From the NCBI RefSeq assembly GCF_001610835.1, contig NZ_CP011270.1, positions 1,798,001 through 1,862,000 on the forward strand: 64,000 nt of DNA. Direction: 5' to 3'. The notes under the pieces were generated by a model, which searched no databases, was not told where the DNA came from, and was given only the letters and a program-made list of their open reading frames with translations. The position numbers and the translations under genes are program-made. How positions within the stretch are numbered: the first letter of the stretch is position 1; each line of letters starts with the position of its first letter. Below are positions 47,867 through 57,022 of the stretch, piece after piece. Source of the DNA: Planctomyces sp. SH-PL14 (GTDB lineage: Bacteria; Planctomycetota; Planctomycetia; Planctomycetales; Planctomycetaceae).

Positions 47867-48205
47867 GCTCAAACCGCGTCCTTGCCGGCACGACTTTGTC
47901 ACCTCAAACCCAACGTGCCACGGCAGCCTGGGGTCAAGGGGGCCACGCCCCCTTGCCGCCGGAGGCACTTCCATGAGGAACCGTGGTAAGCAACGGATGT
48001 CCCCTTTGTGGCACCCGCTATGAGAACTCCTGCACACCACACCGCTCGCTTTGTAATCCCCGCGGGTTGGTGAGGGGGGCATACGGCACTGTGTCCGCGC
48101 TTGGACACGTACTCCTTCAGACAGTTCTCGACGGCCAGACCTCCGGCGGGCAAGAGGGCTTCGCCCCCTTGCATCCCCCACCAGGGGTACCCCCTGGACC
48201 CCGGT
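47867..48205 (+). repeat. R-element copy R7
   Basis: Plus-orientation copy in the convergent gap between pyrD (59 nt) and ftsH (100 nt). Hairpin A is the common CAC-loop form. Hairpin B has a TTC loop inside GGGC/GCCC, that is a GCTTCG-type tetraloop context. The internal GTGTCC/GGACAC stem around GCGCTT is perfect. One of the best preserved copies. Confidence 0.88.
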
Positions 48206-50631: not shown

Positions 50632-50735
50632 CATTCAAACGGCTGCTTGATCGTTTTCCCCCGGGCAGCCTCCGCTTTGCTGCTTCCGTTCCGCCCGCCT
50701 CCTTGCCCCTCCTCCTCCCAGCTGAGACTCGAATT

Positions 50736-51704
50736 ATGCGCCGGCGTCATGGTTTCACGTTGATCGAACTGCTTGTGGTCATTGCCATCATCGCCGTCCT
50801 CGTGGCGATCCTCCTTCCCGCCGTCCAGCAGGCCCGCGAAGCCGCCCGCGCGACGCAGTGCAAGAACAACATGAAGCAGCTCGGCCTGGCGCTGCACAAC
50901 TACGAGGGGACGTTCGGCCTGTTCCCGCCCAGCAGTACCAGCGGCTTCGGTCGCGGGGTGTGGAACTACACGGGCGCCGCGAGCGACCGGGATCCGACAG
51001 TCCACCTCCACAGCTTCGCCAGCCTGATCCTGCCGAACCTCGACCAGACTGCGATCGCGAACCGGATCGACTACAACGTCTCCGCCCTGGCGGCCGGGGC
51101 GAACCGGGAGATGGCCACCAAGATCATTCCGGCGTACCGCTGCCCCAGCTACGCCGGCCCGTCGTTCTATAGCACCGACGCCCTGTACGCGAACAATACG
51201 ACCGCCTTCGGCGCCGCGACGCCGAACGTCTTCGCCCTCCGCAACTATGTCGCCGTCGGAGCGAAAACGGTCGTCGGCCTTTCCGGCGCGATCCCGGCCG
51301 AAGGGATCATGTTTCCGGGCTCCCGGACCCGGATCGCGGATATCACCGACGGCACGACGAACACGATCATTCTGGCCGAAACTAAAGAGGATAAGGCCGC
51401 GGTCTGGATCGATGGAACCTCGGGCTCGGTGGCGGCGCGGTTCTTCGATATGACGAACTCGCCGACCTTCGCCGGCCGCTCGGTGTCGATCAACTACCAG
51501 CCGTACTACTTCTACCCGCTTCCGGGATCGATCAACCAGAACTGGGGCCCGTCGAGCTACCACACCGGCGGAGCGACGCACCTCGTCGCCGACGGCTCGG
51601 TCCAGTTCCTCTCGGAGAACATCAACCCCGAGCTCTACGACGCCATGGTGACCAAGTCGAACGGCGGCCCCGAAACAGCCGCCGGCGTCAAGGTCCAGTG
51701 GTAA
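50736..51704 (+). CDS. DUF1559 domain, type II pseudopilin-like protein
   Basis: 322 aa member of the large planctomycete DUF1559 family. The N-terminal prepilin-like segment [20 protein letters not shown] has the peptidase cleavage context (F-T-L-I-E), followed by the family signature [20 protein letters not shown] and [12 protein letters not shown]. The C-terminus shows the H..G...DGSVQFLSE pattern ([16 protein letters not shown]). Probably a surface or secretion pseudopilin; exact role unknown. Singleton here. Convergent with the permease gene, 27 nt apart. Confidence 0.95.
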
Positions 51705-51731: not shown

Positions 51732-53066
51732 TCACTTGGGCTCGGTCGGAATCGGCTGACCGTGGGGATCCACGGTCGGCTGGCTCGTCGCCTGATCGAG
51801 CTGCTCCCGCATCGAGTGGTCGGTGAAGTGCTCGTACTGCTCCGCCTTGCGGTGGATCCGGTCCGCTTCGAGGCCGGCGTGCGAGACGAGGTACTGCTCC
51901 CACAGCCGGTGCGACCGGACGAGATTCTGGGCATGCGTCCGTCCGGCGGCGGAGAGGCGATAGACATCGCTCGCGGTCTCGACCTGGCCGCGCCGCCCGA
52001 GCAGGAACAGCGCCGCCCGGAGCGAGAGGCGGTCCGCCAGCAGGACGTCGCGAAGATGCTCGGCGGTGGCGGGGGTCGCTCCCTGCCGCTCCTCGATCCG
52101 GTACAGAAGGGCGACGACGTCGTCGGTCAGGATCTGCCAAGCCAGCATCCGCTGACGCACGAAACGGACCAGGACGCCGTGACGAGGTCCAAGCGTCGCC
52201 GCCAGGAGCAGGAACAGCCCCGCGGCGACTGCCATCATGCCGGCGGTCGTCGTGCTCTGCAGGCCGAACCAATGCGGGATCGTGAGCGCGCCGACGTGTC
52301 CCGCGAAGGCTGAGAGCGCCGCCAGCAGGGCGCTCAGGCCGATCATCGGCCCCAGCCGGTCCGTCAGGAGATACGCCGCCGCCGGGGGGACGATGAACAT
52401 CGCCACGACGAGGATGTTCCCCACGCTCTCGAAGCTGGCGACCGCCGTGATCGCCACGAGGACCATCAGCAGGTAGTGCATGAGCTTCGCGCTGATCCCG
52501 GACGTCGTCGACAGGGCCGGGTCGAAAGAGCTGATCTTGAGCTCCTTATAGAACAGCCCGACGAACAGCGCATTGATGACGGCCACCACGGAGAGTGTCG
52601 CCACCGCCCGCGGGACCTCCAGCCCCAGGATCGAGACGGTGTCGAGCGGCGTGAGCTCGATGGCACCGTACAGGACGCAGCCCGGATCGAGGTCGACGTG
52701 ATCGGCCGCCTGGACGATCAGGACGAGCCCCAGGGCAAAGAGCGACGTGAAGACGACCCCCATCGAGGCCCCTTCGTCGACCTGCCCGATCCCGCGGACC
52801 CACTCGGTGAAGAAGGCGGTCAGGATTCCGACCGCCACCGCGCCCACGAACATCGGCCAGCTGCTGCGGCTGTCGCTGACGAGGAACGCGACCGCCAGCC
52901 CCGGCAGGACGGCGTGGGTGATGGCGTCCCCCAGCATGCTCATCCGCCGCAGGACGAGGAAGTTCCCCAGGAGCGACGCCGAGACGGCACACAGGATCCC
53001 CGCCAGGACGATCCAGCCATCGAGCGCCCAACTCCAGTTCGGCACCAGTGTGATCGCAAGCGACAT
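51732..53066 (-). CDS. Metal ABC transporter permease fused to a DtxR/MntR-like module
   Basis: 444 aa. The first 280 residues are an ABC-3 family permease (8-9 helices; GNFLVLRRMSMLGDAITHAV, GNILVVAMFIVPPAAAYLL). Residues about 300-440 are not membrane: a winged-helix-like segment followed by SHRLWEQYLVSHAG and IHRKAEQYEHF, the metal-site region of MntR/DtxR dimerisation domains. E409-x-x-E412-H413 matches the E99/E102/H103 ligands of B. subtilis MntR, and H386 fits H77. A repressor-type metal site on the transporter itself suggests feedback on import. Start is 1 nt after the preceding gene's stop. Confidence 0.88.
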   Translation of the reverse strand: MSLAITLVPNWSWALDGWIVLAGILCAVSASLLGNFLVLRRMSMLGDAITHAVLPGLAVAFLVSDSRSSWPMFVGAVAVGILTAFFTEWVRGIGQVDEGASMGVVFTSLFALGLVLIVQAADHVDLDPGCVLYGAIELTPLDTVSILGLEVPRAVATLSVVAVINALFVGLFYKELKISSFDPALSTTSGISAKLMHYLLMVLVAITAVASFESVGNILVVAMFIVPPAAAYLLTDRLGPMIGLSALLAALSAFAGHVGALTIPHWFGLQSTTTAGMMAVAAGLFLLLAATLGPRHGVLVRFVRQRMLAWQILTDDVVALLYRIEERQGATPATAEHLRDVLLADRLSLRAALFLLGRRGQVETASDVYRLSAAGRTHAQNLVRSHRLWEQYLVSHAGLEADRIHRKAEQYEHFTDHSMREQLDQATSQPTVDPHGQPIPTEPK

Positions 53067-53067
53067 C

Positions 53068-54573
53068 TTACCGGACTCCTTCCGGTCGAGCGGTCCGCGC
53101 AGCCGCGGGAGGGACCGACTCCAGTCCGTGCGGGCTCGCCGGCGCGCCGGGCGTTCCCTGCTGAAGGAGTTCCTCCAGCTCCGCGATCACTTCGGGCTCC
53201 AGAACATGCTCGATGGCGTCGGCGTCTCGGTCGACGCGGCTGGGAGCGATGTCGGCATGGGCAATCAGGTACAGCTCCCACAGGCGGTGCTGCCGGGTGA
53301 GTCGGATTCCTTCGAGGGCGCCGCGGCGGGTGAGCCGGATCGGCTCCGTCCCCCATTCGATCAGCTCGTCATGCCGGGCCCGCTGGATCGCGCCCCGCAG
53401 ACGGGCCGGGGACCAGGACCGTTTTCCCAACAGGGCCGCGAACGTGACGTTCGCGGACGAGGCCGGGCCCGGGCCAGTCGCGGTTTCCTGCAACTCATGA
53501 ATCGCCCGCAGGAGGTGCTGCCGGTCGATGCTCCGGGCGAGGTCCCACCGTCGCCGAACCCGGTGCAGGACGCCGCGGGCCGATCCGAACACGAGGCTGA
53601 CACCGAAGAGAGACGTCGAGACGAGGACGATCATCGCCCCGGATGGGACTTTCGAGAACAGGGCGCTCATCCCCGCCCCCGCCAGTCCGCTGAAGGCGCC
53701 GAGCCCCCCCGAGATGAGGAACATCCGCGACAGCTTCTCCGTCCAGAACCGGGCGGCCGCCGCCGGAATGACGAGCATGGCGACCATCAGGATCAGTCCG
53801 ACCGCCTGCAGACCAACGATCGTGACGACCACCACGAGGGCCATGAGGGTCAGATCGAGGAACAGGACCGGCATCCCGGCCGCCCCGGCGAACCCCTCGT
53901 CGAAGCAGAGGAGTTTCAGTTCCTTAAACAGGAGCACACAGGCGACGACGCAGACGAAGGCCGAGACGGCGATGATCGTCGTGTCGCCCGTCCCCATCGA
54001 GGCGGTCTTGCCGTAGACGAACGACTCCAGCCCCGCGGCGTGTCCCTTCTCCATCTGCTGGATCAGGCCGAGGAGCGCGGCCCCGGCGCCGAAGAAGACG
54101 CTGAGGACCGCGCCGAGCGCCGTGTCCTCTTTGAGCCGCGTCAGGTTGCGGATGAGCAGGATCGCCGCGACTCCCAGGAGCCCCGTGACGGTCGCCCCCA
54201 GGAGCAGGAGCGGCAGCGATTTGCCGTCGCCCCCCCACCGCGTGGCGACGAGGAACGCGAGGCAGATCCCGGGGAGCGTCGCATGGCTCAGGGCGTCCCC
54301 CATGAGAGCCCGCTTCCGGAGAAGCATGAACGAGCCGACCATCCCGGAGGCACAGCCGAGGAGCATCGTCCCCAGCAGCACGACCCGGGTGTTGTAGTCC
54401 TCGAGCAACAGCACCCGCCGCCACTGGGCCGCGGAGGGCCAGGCGAGCGATCGCCCCGCCAGCGAACGATCGGTTGCCGGAGAGGCGGGGCGGGGAGGCG
54501 GTTCGGCCTGGGCCGCCGGCGCCACCAGGAGGAGGCTCCCCCACAGGACCAGCAGAAAGATCGCGCGGCTCAC
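53068..54573 (-). CDS. Metal ABC transporter permease fused to a DtxR/MntR-like module
   Basis: 501 aa, with an N-terminal leader-like helix (RAIFLLVLWGSLLLVAPAAQ), then an ABC-3 permease (GSFMLLRKRALMGDALSHA, GLILMVAMLVIPAAAARF). The C-terminal 150 residues again carry the winged-helix and dimerisation pattern: ARSIDRQHLLRAIHELQE, then RQHRLWELYLIAHADIAP and RVDRDADAIEHVL. The metal-site equivalents are H429, D452, E455 and H456, with Asp in place of the first Glu. It pairs with the second permease; both halves of the transporter therefore have cytoplasmic sensors. 4-nt overlap with the ATPase gene (ATGA). Confidence 0.88.
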   Translation of the reverse strand: MSRAIFLLVLWGSLLLVAPAAQAEPPPRPASPATDRSLAGRSLAWPSAAQWRRVLLLEDYNTRVVLLGTMLLGCASGMVGSFMLLRKRALMGDALSHATLPGICLAFLVATRWGGDGKSLPLLLLGATVTGLLGVAAILLIRNLTRLKEDTALGAVLSVFFGAGAALLGLIQQMEKGHAAGLESFVYGKTASMGTGDTTIIAVSAFVCVVACVLLFKELKLLCFDEGFAGAAGMPVLFLDLTLMALVVVVTIVGLQAVGLILMVAMLVIPAAAARFWTEKLSRMFLISGGLGAFSGLAGAGMSALFSKVPSGAMIVLVSTSLFGVSLVFGSARGVLHRVRRRWDLARSIDRQHLLRAIHELQETATGPGPASSANVTFAALLGKRSWSPARLRGAIQRARHDELIEWGTEPIRLTRRGALEGIRLTRQHRLWELYLIAHADIAPSRVDRDADAIEHVLEPEVIAELEELLQQGTPGAPASPHGLESVPPAAARTARPEGVR

Positions 54574-55424
54574 AGTGATCGCTCCCGGCGGCGCATCGCC
54601 TCGGAGACTTCGTCCAGGAGCGTGAGCCGCCCGCCATAGGTCTTCTGGAGATTCTCGGGAGTAAAGACCTCCGCGACCGGGCCGTGCGCCACGACCCGCA
54701 TGTTGAGGAGGATCACGTGATCGAAGTACTCGGGGACGGTCTGGAGGTCGTGATGAATCACGAGAACCGTCTTCCCCCGCTCTTTCATCTCCCGCAGGAG
54801 GTCGACGATCGCCCGTTCCGTCGCGGCATCGACCGCGGCGAACGGCTCATCCATCAGGTAGAGGTCCGCGTCCTGCACGAGCGCCCGGGCGAGGAAGGTC
54901 CGCTGCTGCTGGCCACCGGAGAGCTGGCTGATCTGCCGCCGCGCGAGGTCCGCGATCCCGACGCGGCTGAGGGCTTCTAGCGCCAGTTCGCGATGCTTGC
55001 GACGGACCGGCAGGCACCAGCCGATCTTCCCGTACAGGCCCATCGTCACGACATCGAGGGCGTCCACGGGAAAGTCCCAGTCGACGCTCTCCCGCTGCGG
55101 GACGTAACCGACCCGGTTCCGGCTGCGGCGGTACGATTCCCCGAACAGCCGGATCCGCCCCGACGCGCGGGGAATGAGATCCATGATCGCCTTGAGGAGC
55201 GTGCTTTTCCCCGCTCCGTTCGGTCCGACAACGCCGACGAGCCGACCGGGCGGGATGTCGAAGCTGACGTCCCAGATGACCGGCTTGCGATGGTAAGCGA
55301 CCGTCAGGTCATAGACCGACAGGGGGACCGCGGTCCCATTGAAATCCTGTCCCGTTCCCGTCGCCTCCCGGCCCGGACTCCGGCCTTCCGCAGCGGCGAT
55401 GTTCGGTTCGATCGGGGAATTCAT
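54570..55424 (-). CDS. Metal ABC transporter ATP-binding protein
   Basis: 284 aa ATPase of the Mn/Zn/Fe importer (ABC-3 group). Walker A GPNGAGKST, Q-loop VPQRESVDW (a Trp after the Gln region typical of Mn/Zn importers), signature LSGGQQQR, Walker B LYLMDEPFAAVD, H-loop VLVIHHDL. About 35 extra, probably flexible, residues precede the domain. Overlaps by 4 nt with the binding-protein gene upstream and with the permease downstream, so all four genes are one operon. Confidence 0.92.
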   Translation of the reverse strand: MNSPIEPNIAAAEGRSPGREATGTGQDFNGTAVPLSVYDLTVAYHRKPVIWDVSFDIPPGRLVGVVGPNGAGKSTLLKAIMDLIPRASGRIRLFGESYRRSRNRVGYVPQRESVDWDFPVDALDVVTMGLYGKIGWCLPVRRKHRELALEALSRVGIADLARRQISQLSGGQQQRTFLARALVQDADLYLMDEPFAAVDAATERAIVDLLREMKERGKTVLVIHHDLQTVPEYFDHVILLNMRVVAHGPVAEVFTPENLQKTYGGRLTLLDEVSEAMRRRERSL

Positions 55425-56572
55425 TGTGCTGCCCCCGCGCCTGCGGTCGCGGCCGGTGCGGCTTCGTTGTTCGGCAGAGGGGCAGCGGACGACGCGTGGG
55501 CGAGCCGGCCGTTGAGTCCCGCTTCCGGGGCGGTTCCGCCGAGAGCCCGCGTCACCAGTGTGATGTTGTGGTCGAGCATCCCGACGTAGGTCCCTTCATA
55601 GGTCCCGTGTTCCCCCATGGCGTCGGAGTAGAGCTCGCCTCCGACCCGAATGACGTGCTTCCGGTTCCGTGCTCCTTCGACGAGGGCGTCGATGCTCTTG
55701 CGCGGGACGCTGCTTTCGACGAACAGGGCGGGCAGTTTCCGGGCCACGATCTCGTCGACCAGTTCATTGACCCGCTGCAGGCCGGCTTCCGATTCGGTCG
55801 ACAGCCCCTGGATTCCCTGGACATCGAGGCTGTAGGCGCGGCCGAAGTAGTTGAAGGCGTCGTGCGACGTGATGAGCGTCCGGGCCTCCTTGGGAATCGA
55901 GGCGATCGACTTGAGGCCGTAGTCGTGGAGCTTCGCCAGGTCCTCGCGATACCGGGCGGCGTTCCGCTGATAGTCCGCCGCGTGGGGCGGATCGAATTTC
56001 GCCAGTTCCGATTCGACGACCTCGACGCACCGCGACCAGGCGGAGACATCCATCCAGACGTGCGGGTCGAAATGCCCGGCGAAATCTTCGGGCTCGAGGA
56101 GCGTGGCAGGCTCGAGTTCCTCCGTCACAGCGACGACGGGCTTGGTCCGTGCCACCTTGACGAGGGTGTCGACCATTTTTCCTTCCAGCATCAGGCCGGA
56201 GTAGAAGACGACATCGCCGGCCATAATGGTCCGGACGTCGTCCCGGGTTGCCTTGTAGAGATGAGGGTCGACTCCGGCCCCCATGATCTGGGTGACCTCG
56301 ACGTGGTCGCCGCCGACGTTCCGGACGAGATCGGCCACCATCCCGACGGTCGCGACCGCCTTGATCGCTCCCGTTCGGGCGGTGTTGCCCGCGCCCGTTG
56401 GAGCCGTGTCTTTCGCCGCCGGCGAGGCGCTATCGCAGCCGCTCATCCAGACGAGGGCGAGGAACAGCGTCGCCAGCCGCGGGAGAGTCAGAAAACGGTG
56501 GCCCTGATGAGCGGAGACAGGGGAGGGCGATTCCACAGTCCAGTCCAGGTCACGAATTCCCCACTCCAACAT
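55421..56572 (-). CDS. Metal ABC transporter substrate-binding lipoprotein, Mn type
   Basis: 383 aa of the TroA/PsaA/MntC cluster. The leader is long (46 residues); the lipobox reads VWMSGC with the lipidated Cys at C46. Metal ligands by family position: His in GVDPHLYK, His in FDPHVWMD, Glu in LFVESSV and Asp in GMLDHNI. An H-H-E-D set marks manganese (or iron) binders, while zinc binders have H-H-H-D, and the His-rich loop of ZnuA is absent. The ATG at 56572 has GGGAGG 4-5 nt upstream, which supports the long leader. Confidence 0.9.
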   Translation of the reverse strand: MLEWGIRDLDWTVESPSPVSAHQGHRFLTLPRLATLFLALVWMSGCDSASPAAKDTAPTGAGNTARTGAIKAVATVGMVADLVRNVGGDHVEVTQIMGAGVDPHLYKATRDDVRTIMAGDVVFYSGLMLEGKMVDTLVKVARTKPVVAVTEELEPATLLEPEDFAGHFDPHVWMDVSAWSRCVEVVESELAKFDPPHAADYQRNAARYREDLAKLHDYGLKSIASIPKEARTLITSHDAFNYFGRAYSLDVQGIQGLSTESEAGLQRVNELVDEIVARKLPALFVESSVPRKSIDALVEGARNRKHVIRVGGELYSDAMGEHGTYEGTYVGMLDHNITLVTRALGGTAPEAGLNGRLAHASSAAPLPNNEAAPAATAGAGAAQ

Positions 56573-56635: not shown

Positions 56636-56663
56636 ATTGTACCCTAAGCTACATCTTCGTCAA
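56636..56663 (-). promoter_or_regulatory. Sigma-70 promoter of the metal importer operon
   Basis: Minus strand reads TTGACG (56663-56658), 16 nt, TACAAT (56641-56636), about 64 nt before the ATG. Near-consensus boxes and good spacing. A loose dyad TGTA-N8-TACA overlaps the -10 and may be a metalloregulator site, but it does not match a consensus I can name with confidence. Confidence 0.65.
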
Positions 56664-56700: not shown

Positions 56701-57022
56701 CCGGGTCCAGGGGCACCCTGGTGGGGGATGCAAGGGGGCAACGCCCTCTTGCCCGCCGGAGGCCCTCTCGTCGAGAGATCTCTGAAGGAGAGAGTGTCCA
56801 AACGCGGACAACGTGCCGTATGCCCCCTCACCAACCCGCGGGGACTGCAGAGCGAGCGGTCAGTCCTCAGCGCCGGTGCCACAAAGCGGTCGCCCGTTGC
56901 GTTCCACGGTTCCTCATGGAAGTGCCTCCGGCGGCAAGGGGGCGTGGCCCCCTTGACCCCAGGCTGCCGTGGCACATTGGGTTTGAGCGACCAGAGCTGT
57001 GCCGGCAAGAACGTGTTTCCGC
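56701..57022 (-). repeat. R-element copy R8
   Basis: Minus-orientation copy in the divergent gap between the metal importer operon (128 nt from its ATG) and the DKNYY lipoprotein gene (79 nt). Hairpin B is GCAAGGGGGC, loop AAC, GCCCTCTTGC; hairpin A is CAAGGGGGC, loop GTG, GCCCCCTTG. It stands directly upstream of the importer's promoter without overlapping it. Confidence 0.88.

Follow-up and report, generated by a model that had tools for sequence, protein, structure and literature searches.

Both permeases of a planctomycete ABC-3 metal importer carry predicted DtxR/MntR-like sensor domains with decayed DNA-recognition helices

Background

Fusions of an ATP-binding cassette (ABC) importer permease to a DtxR-like domain have been described. 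In Chlamydia YtgCR (CT069, of ytgABCD) a permease is followed by a C-terminal DtxR-like domain that keeps its metal ligands, in an operon ordered substrate-binding protein, ATPase, permease, permease (PMC5599777), and the same source credits permease-DtxR fusions in 11 phyla to Thompson 2012. Only the first permease is described there as fused, and YtgR is cleaved and binds DNA. Here we analyze an operon of Planctomyces sp. SH-PL14 in which both permeases carry such a domain and the recognition helices have apparently decayed. The window is the whole stretch of 64,000 nucleotides that was analyzed (NZ_CP011270.1, positions 1,798,001 to 1,862,000), from a genome of 8.44 Mb in one contig.

To our knowledge, little is understood of how bacteria restrain high-affinity ABC importers of Mn, Fe or Zn once these are in place in the membrane. 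According to PMC10710835, MetNI and ModABC were the first ABC importers for which trans-inhibition by the substrate was explained; in them, import is slowed when the transported substrate is sensed by a cytoplasmic domain that dimerises. That domain is of another fold and lies at the C-terminus of the ATPase (MetN, ModC). In PsaBC, a manganese importer like MntBC and a homodimer whose permease chain (258-290 residues) has no such C-terminal domain, Asp46 and His50 are transmembrane metal-coordinating residues (PMC11779740).

The initial annotation of this DNA had stated that repressors of the DtxR family normally regulate such importers as separate proteins. This overstated how unusual the fusion is, since the permease-DtxR architecture is already known and widespread; what may be new is its function. 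The open papers searched yielded no account of such a domain on both permeases, nor of gating by such fusions. If gating by the domains is real, cytoplasmic metal feedback would be built into a widespread family of importers, with a repressor fold reused as an allosteric brake, and the expectation that permease-DtxR fusions generally act as repressors would have to be corrected.

Results and Discussion

Both permeases are predicted to end in a DtxR/MntR fold

The two permeases and their C-terminal domains, all on the minus strand, are as follows.

53068..54573, minus strand: P0002, first permease, 501 residues, GTG start; ABC-3 transmembrane domain at about residues 60-331, then a C-terminal DtxR/MntR-like domain
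53104..53541, minus strand: DtxR/MntR-like domain of P0002, residues 345-490, with degenerate recognition helices at 376-404
51732..53066, minus strand: P0001, second permease, 444 residues; ABC-3 transmembrane domain at about residues 15-297, then a DtxR/MntR-like domain at 305-444
51735..52154, minus strand: DtxR/MntR-like domain of P0001, residues 305-444, with degenerate recognition helices at 330-359

With moderate confidence we favour the reading that the fused domains sense metal in the cytoplasm and act on the transporter by trans-inhibition, and that a standalone MntR controls transcription. Architecture, fold, conservation pattern, recognition-helix decay, the coexisting standalone DtxR and the operator-like motif were all computed here.

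Pfam identified ABC-3 and Fe_dep_repr_C (PF02742) in both permeases, the latter at residues 374-441 of P0001 (E 1.1e-20) and 415-472 of P0002 (E 7.8e-12). Residues 318-440 of P0001 were aligned to DtxR-family chains by phmmer (7b25, E 1.8e-12), and the match of P0002 was weaker (8pvt, E 1e-4). AlphaFold models built from input alignments of 45 (P0001) and 40 (P0002) sequences had mean predicted local distance difference test (pLDDT) scores of 92.8 and 87.8, and the Foldseek match to DtxR was clear for P0001 (8pw0, E 5.8e-6) and weaker for P0002 (8pvt, E 6.1e-4). VIA-align superposed residues 305-444 of the P0001 model on 1fx7_B (Z 19.0, root-mean-square deviation 2.0, 136 residues aligned) and residues 346-493 of the P0002 model on 2qq9 (Z 16.5, root-mean-square deviation 2.1, 133 residues aligned). 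In both models the structural match to DtxR, IdeR and DR2539 spans the winged helix and the dimerisation domain, indicating that both permeases end in a complete DtxR/MntR fold.

Pfam, AlphaFold, Foldseek and structural alignment therefore agree with the initial annotation, which had given the reading frames and coordinates of both permeases correctly and had proposed a DtxR/MntR-like metal-sensor module on each; AlphaFold, one of the checks suggested there for the C-terminal regions, returned the DtxR fold. Like the repressors DR2539, IdeR and MntR, the modules have the whole winged-helix and dimerisation fold and the primary-site ligands; unlike them, they are fused to permeases and have kept neither the recognition helix nor the PF01325 signature. 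The dimerisation domain is the last one in the window proteins, which lack the SH3-like domain that IdeR has. As in YtgCR, the closest system described so far, permease and DtxR-like domain follow each other in one polypeptide, YtgR itself being compared by its description only.

The membrane parts of the P0001 and P0002 models match PsaC (Z 31.6 and 33.9), and D47/H51 and D93/H97 fit Asp46/His50 of PsaBC by spacing and place (PMC11779740). In both models one unbroken helix after the last membrane helix takes in helix 1 of the DtxR fold (residues 298-328 in P0001, 335-366 in P0002).

The DNA-reading part has decayed

Orthologues were compared in six genomes of the window's family, in which the recognition segments align without gaps. 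For P0001, identity fell from 0.77 (membrane part) and 0.64 (dimerisation domain) to 0.31 (recognition helices) and 0.39 (wing), and for P0002 the corresponding values were 0.71, 0.68, 0.47 and 0.24. Standalone MntR of the same six genomes showed the reverse pattern (dimerisation 0.56, recognition helices 0.71, wing 0.78). Across six fused sets the ratio of recognition to dimerisation identity ranged over 0.35-0.49; two standalone sets had ratios of 0.98 and 0.86.

A similar division was obtained with a model of the standalone helix-turn-helix. All 166 fused domains, counted after removal of exact duplicates, scored 25.9 bits or less, and all 41 standalone domains, scored while held out, reached at least 35.2 bits (median 72.9; the lowest, at 35.2, is a distant reference and the next scored 59.2); near-copies in the standalone set make its held-out scores partly dependent. 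The window domains scored 2.6 and 3.0 bits. Gaps or misalignment may depress the scores of fused domains, a problem from which the gap-free comparison of six genomes is free. For a sample of fused planctomycete domains (45 of 86) and of standalone ones (33 of 40), Pfam recognised the DNA-binding domain PF01325 in 1/45 fused and 33/33 standalone domains, and PF02742 in 45/45 and 33/33. Neither window domain has the sequence of a repressor-type helix-turn-helix, that is, PF01325 with a conserved recognition helix.

By these sequence comparisons, the DNA-recognition part of the fused domains is decayed and the metal and dimerisation machinery is kept. Since the DNA-reading surface appears lost, the domains are better explained as cytoplasmic metal sensors than as sequence-specific repressors, and that distinction is well supported. 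For the fusions sampled here as a whole, the evidence argues against sequence-specific repression.

Metal-ligand positions

The positions E409/E412/H413 of P0001 and D452/E455/H456 of P0002, singled out in the initial annotation as dimerisation-domain metal sites, proved correct, and further ligand positions belong to both sites. With Bacillus subtilis MntR as reference (ligands listed in PMC6860424), P0001 has D316 (Asp8), H386 (His77), E390 (Glu81), H405, E409, E412 and H413, and P0002 has H353 (at the Asp8 position), H429, E433, D448, D452, E455 and H456. Both permeases thus combine PF02742 with primary-site ligands, H353, D448 and D452 occupying three of the ligand positions in P0002. The Glu11 ligand of MntR is missing from both, that column holding A and R. 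In MntR proteins the first ligand position is Asp or Asn and that of E409 is Glu (PMC10317159). P0001 would accordingly have a nearly complete Mn-type site lacking Glu11, and P0002 a putatively modified one.

These ligands are nearly invariant in homologues; neither of the outcomes that the initial annotation would have taken as refuting it, absence of a DtxR fold or of ligand conservation, was observed. In P0001 and 44 relatives drawn from 85 full-length fused proteins, H386, R387, W389, E390, H405, A408, E412 and H413 are invariant, as are the transmembrane D47/H51 and D93/H97 in two sets (45 and 40 proteins) that overlap. Across the 166 distinct fused domains His77 is kept in 160, Glu81 in 161, Glu102 in 164 and His103 in 163 (MntR positions); the Asp8 position is mostly D, N or H and the Glu99 position mostly E, D or H.

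The W at MntR position 80 (HRLWE) was tried as a mark of fusion. It is present in 85/86 fused but only 1/24 standalone planctomycete domains, yet 7 of the 15 standalone proteins of a wider set (the fragment L170 left out) share it, and the mark was dropped.

Distribution and origin of the fusions

The initial annotation had suggested a search for the architecture in other phyla, and it was found there. Among 294 genomes of the phylum, 177 had a match to P0001 at E<=1e-5, a count that takes in unfused permeases; 60 of these genomes, one locus each, together with the window make up a planctomycete set of 61 loci. The full domain is on both permeases in 30 of them, on the first only in 7, on the second only in 2 and on none in 5; the remaining 17 have a single fused permease in the stretch, of which four (L052, L053, L068, L069) have a first permease elsewhere in the genome, so that at most 13 are truly single.

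A second set, of 79 loci from named genomes, comes from the best 80 of at least 523 relatives (among 595 stretches); it is not a census and, having been queried with six closer sequences, is biased to relatives of those six. Its titles name Planctomycetota, Bacteroidota, Acidobacteriota, Verrucomicrobiota, Zixibacteria, Calditrichaeota, Krumholzibacteriota and 'Deltaproteobacteria' groups. Among the 78 named loci with a permease, 40 have a single one, 27 carry the domain on the first only (in 7 of them the second has a stump), 9 on both and 2 on the second only. With the sets pooled (a few genomes are present in both; the available stretches of L119 and L154 contain only part of the second permease), both permeases have the full domain in 39/139 loci. 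A window-like binding protein and ATPase accompany the permeases in 54/61 planctomycete and 43/79 named stretches, and those without them are mostly single-permease Bacteroidota.

Some second permeases have only a short, weakly winged-helix-like stretch and no dimerisation domain (L073, L074, L075, L076, L096, L101-L103, L105, L108-L110). In the planctomycete set such stumps occur in 5 of the 7 first-only loci and in 2 of the 5 loci without any full domain. In 12 of the 17 planctomycete single-permease rows 77-92 extra residues follow the DtxR domain. The extension of L144 (Bacteroidota) has a weak FeoA/SH3-like match (E 0.0043), and none was found for that of L081; these and other single-permease proteins may be a nearly full-length three-domain DtxR fused to a permease.

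On a tree of the domains, the 166 fused and 41 standalone sequences are split by one branch, with support of 99 for all columns and 81 for the dimerisation part alone. The label fused or standalone changes twice with L170, classed as standalone but a fragment at a contig end, and once without it; the split is still one change on the dimerisation-only tree. The permease tree groups mainly by operon position (6 changes), fused, stump and unfused permeases being intermixed (12 changes between fused and not). The trees were made with FastTree from few columns, and the pattern is compatible with a single old fusion followed by later losses, which it does not prove.

This distribution bears on the possibility that the domains are a structural or metal-handling module that pairs the permeases or takes metal at the cytoplasmic exit and does not regulate transport. 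The conserved part is indeed the dimerisation domain with its ligands, and in many permease pairs each member carries the domain. On the other hand, related operons with one domain or none, and the mixing of fused and unfused permeases on the tree, indicate that the domain is not needed for assembly, and the ligand positions are those of sensors. We regard such a module as unlikely.

The operon and its transcriptional control

The operon is read on the minus strand in the order substrate-binding protein, ATPase, first permease P0002 and second permease P0001; gene starts are mechanical calls. Upstream of P0002 lie the following features.

54570..55424, minus strand: ATPase subunit, 284 residues; its top two NCBIfam hits, to models of Mn and Mn/Fe importer ATPases, fall short of the curated cut-off
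55421..56572, minus strand: substrate-binding protein of the ZnuA family, 383 residues; best NCBIfam models zinc AztC, then Mn/Fe EfaA, below the cut-offs
56636..56663, minus strand: predicted sigma-70-like promoter TTGACG-16-TACAAT (1 found, shuffle mean 0.4)
56638..56653, minus strand: MntR-box-like palindrome TGTAGC-TTAG-GGTACA, one mismatch to TGTAGCN4GCTACA, overlapping the promoter; predicted operator

ABC-3 permeases, a ZnuA-type binding protein and an ABC ATPase in one operon mark this as an ABC-3 (Mn/Zn/Fe) importer. No DtxR-like extra domain was seen on the 284-residue ATPase among the 25 of 33 Pfam families listed, Rfam gave no riboswitch at gathering score between 46000 and 60000, and ARAGORN found no tRNA.

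The operon promoter is overlapped by TGTAGCTTAGGGTACA. We take its motif to resemble the MntR box of Escherichia coli, a literature search for the letters of the box having given nothing. The genome encodes two standalone DtxR proteins, of which one, with 146 residues, is an E. coli-type MntR (against E. coli MntR 2h09, E 4.5e-30), and a standalone DtxR occurs alongside the fusion in 53/56 genomes among the matches listed, a tally made by hand in which G087 was inferred from its match count alone.

In the own genome TGTAGCNNNNGSTACA occurs at two places, the operon promoter and 36 bases before the mechanical start of the second standalone DtxR. The latter match (L190 1501-1516; G000:C1:5170418-5170433) lies just upstream of the gene for a divergent standalone DtxR-like protein of 228 residues, which suggests that this protein may belong to the same regulon. 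Genome-wide, TGTAGCNNNNGSTACA is no commoner than a reversed control (1 and 2 in the own genome, against 3 and 3), and only its position is informative. A perfect TGTAGCNNNNGSTACA site precedes the same operon in 3/7 relatives, and one-mismatch sites lie near the operon start in G177 and G127 (L037, L038), the best site of L037 being 41 bases inside the mechanical start. Of 54 upstream regions, 13 contain a site that departs from TGTAGCN4GCTACA at no more than 2 positions, against 0.5 in shuffles that preserved base content only. The operator-like site was present in 5/6 loci with an E. coli-type MntR neighbour and 0/17 with another DtxR type (23 loci; p 1.8e-4, a guide only as the loci are related by descent). 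The promoter alignment was poor and was not used. With a standalone DtxR present and an operator-like site tied to one MntR type, MntR probably represses the operon, and the fused domains would then form a second layer of control.

The initial annotation had offered two functions for the fusion, direct gating by cytoplasmic metal and membrane-tethered DNA binding. Direct sensing or gating fits these data better; tethered sequence-specific DNA binding fits poorly because the recognition helices are decayed, a standalone DtxR is present and the promoter has an MntR-box-like site. The same data bear on a YtgCR-like explanation, in which the domains, cleaved off or tethered, repress the operon when metal-bound. 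It has a precedent of the same architecture in Chlamydia, where cleavage releases YtgR from YtgC and, with Fe(II), YtgR binds at the ytg promoter (PMC7755916, PMC5599777); moreover, the winged helix is part of the fold and the recognition segments are basic. However, within the fused domains change is fastest in the recognition helices and the wing, the reverse of standalone MntR in the same genomes, 0/166 fused domains score like standalone ones, and PF01325 is recognised in only 1/45. In addition, a standalone DtxR is listed for nearly all genomes with the fusion, and the operator-like motif accompanies one standalone MntR type. A YtgCR-like repressor is therefore quite improbable here. It is very improbable that the domains are the decaying remnant of a fused repressor kept as a neutral tail: the recognition part does decay and second permeases with only a stump stand beside a fully fused first permease in 12/139 loci, but the ligand columns are as invariant as the transport residues across many phyla, and a neutral tail would not keep them.

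Proposed mechanism

The preferred reading, metal sensing that acts on transport, would work as follows. At high levels of free cytoplasmic Mn(II), or of another transition metal, one or both domains would bind metal at their sites; helix 1 would move and the domains would rearrange, and the linker helix would relay this change to the paired permeases or to the ATPases, slowing import. Transcription of the operon would be repressed separately by the standalone E. coli-type MntR at the MntR-box-like operator. The proposed logic is like the trans-inhibition of MetNI and ModABC except that the sensor would be on the membrane subunits; inhibition, explained in those importers, is here a proposal. 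Gating is suggested by the location of the domains, by the single helix that runs into the ligand-bearing helix 1, by the metal-driven movement of helix 1 in DtxR and IdeR (PMC10317159) and by the analogy with MetNI and ModABC. We infer the identity of the metal, its binding, the pairing of the two domains and repression by MntR.

Several observations weigh against this reading. The recognition segments are basic, with a mean net charge over MntR positions 36-50 of +3.1, +3.2 and +2.4 in three fused sets against +1.4 in standalone proteins (over positions 8-76 the charge is similar, +4.4, +3.1 and +2.8 against +4.3), so that non-specific binding to DNA, lipid or the ATPase is possible. YtgR, itself a fused domain, does bind DNA (PMC7755916, PMC5599777), the comparison resting on its published description. 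The full domain is on the first permease only in 34/139 loci, and a domain pair within each transporter is thus not universal. In P0002 the Asp8 position is occupied by H and two more ligand positions by D, and some first permeases have lost core ligands (His77 is gone in 4/37); sensing may depend on one subunit where ligands are altered or lost. The metal is unsettled, the best model being zinc for the binding protein and Mn for the ATPase, all below cut-off. No standalone DtxR was found in G119, G193 and G221, all of them drafts that are 81-87% complete. Among the eight family genomes, G177, G022 and G270 have no strict-pattern site and the sole site of G127 is away from the operon. One of the six loci with an E. 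coli-type MntR neighbour, L057, has no operator-like site.

Pairing of both domains inside one transporter is possible in the window's importer but, given the first-only loci, cannot be general. We put forward only tentatively a broader proposal, of an ancient multi-phylum family of transition-metal importers whose DtxR-fold sensor gave up DNA reading to become an allosteric brake, in which the two copies on planctomycete permeases could pair as a heterodimeric sensor and the cleaved DNA-binding repressor of Chlamydia would be the exception among the 11 phyla.

Other features around the operon

Tandem MntR-box-like sites precede a prepilin-like gene in two genomes of one related genus (L186 and L191, 1501-1543), and a similar prepilin-like gene adjoins the importer operon of the window (50703-51704). 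Prepilin-like genes are numerous in planctomycetes, and the adjacency may be due to chance.

Two inverted copies of a dispersed repeat, 86-87% complementary (47872-48186 and 56716-57018), flank a stretch that holds an ftsH-like gene and the importer operon. A 261-base stretch of the repeat has at least 40 copies in the genome at 87% identity or more (40 scored of 1,167 first-look candidates).

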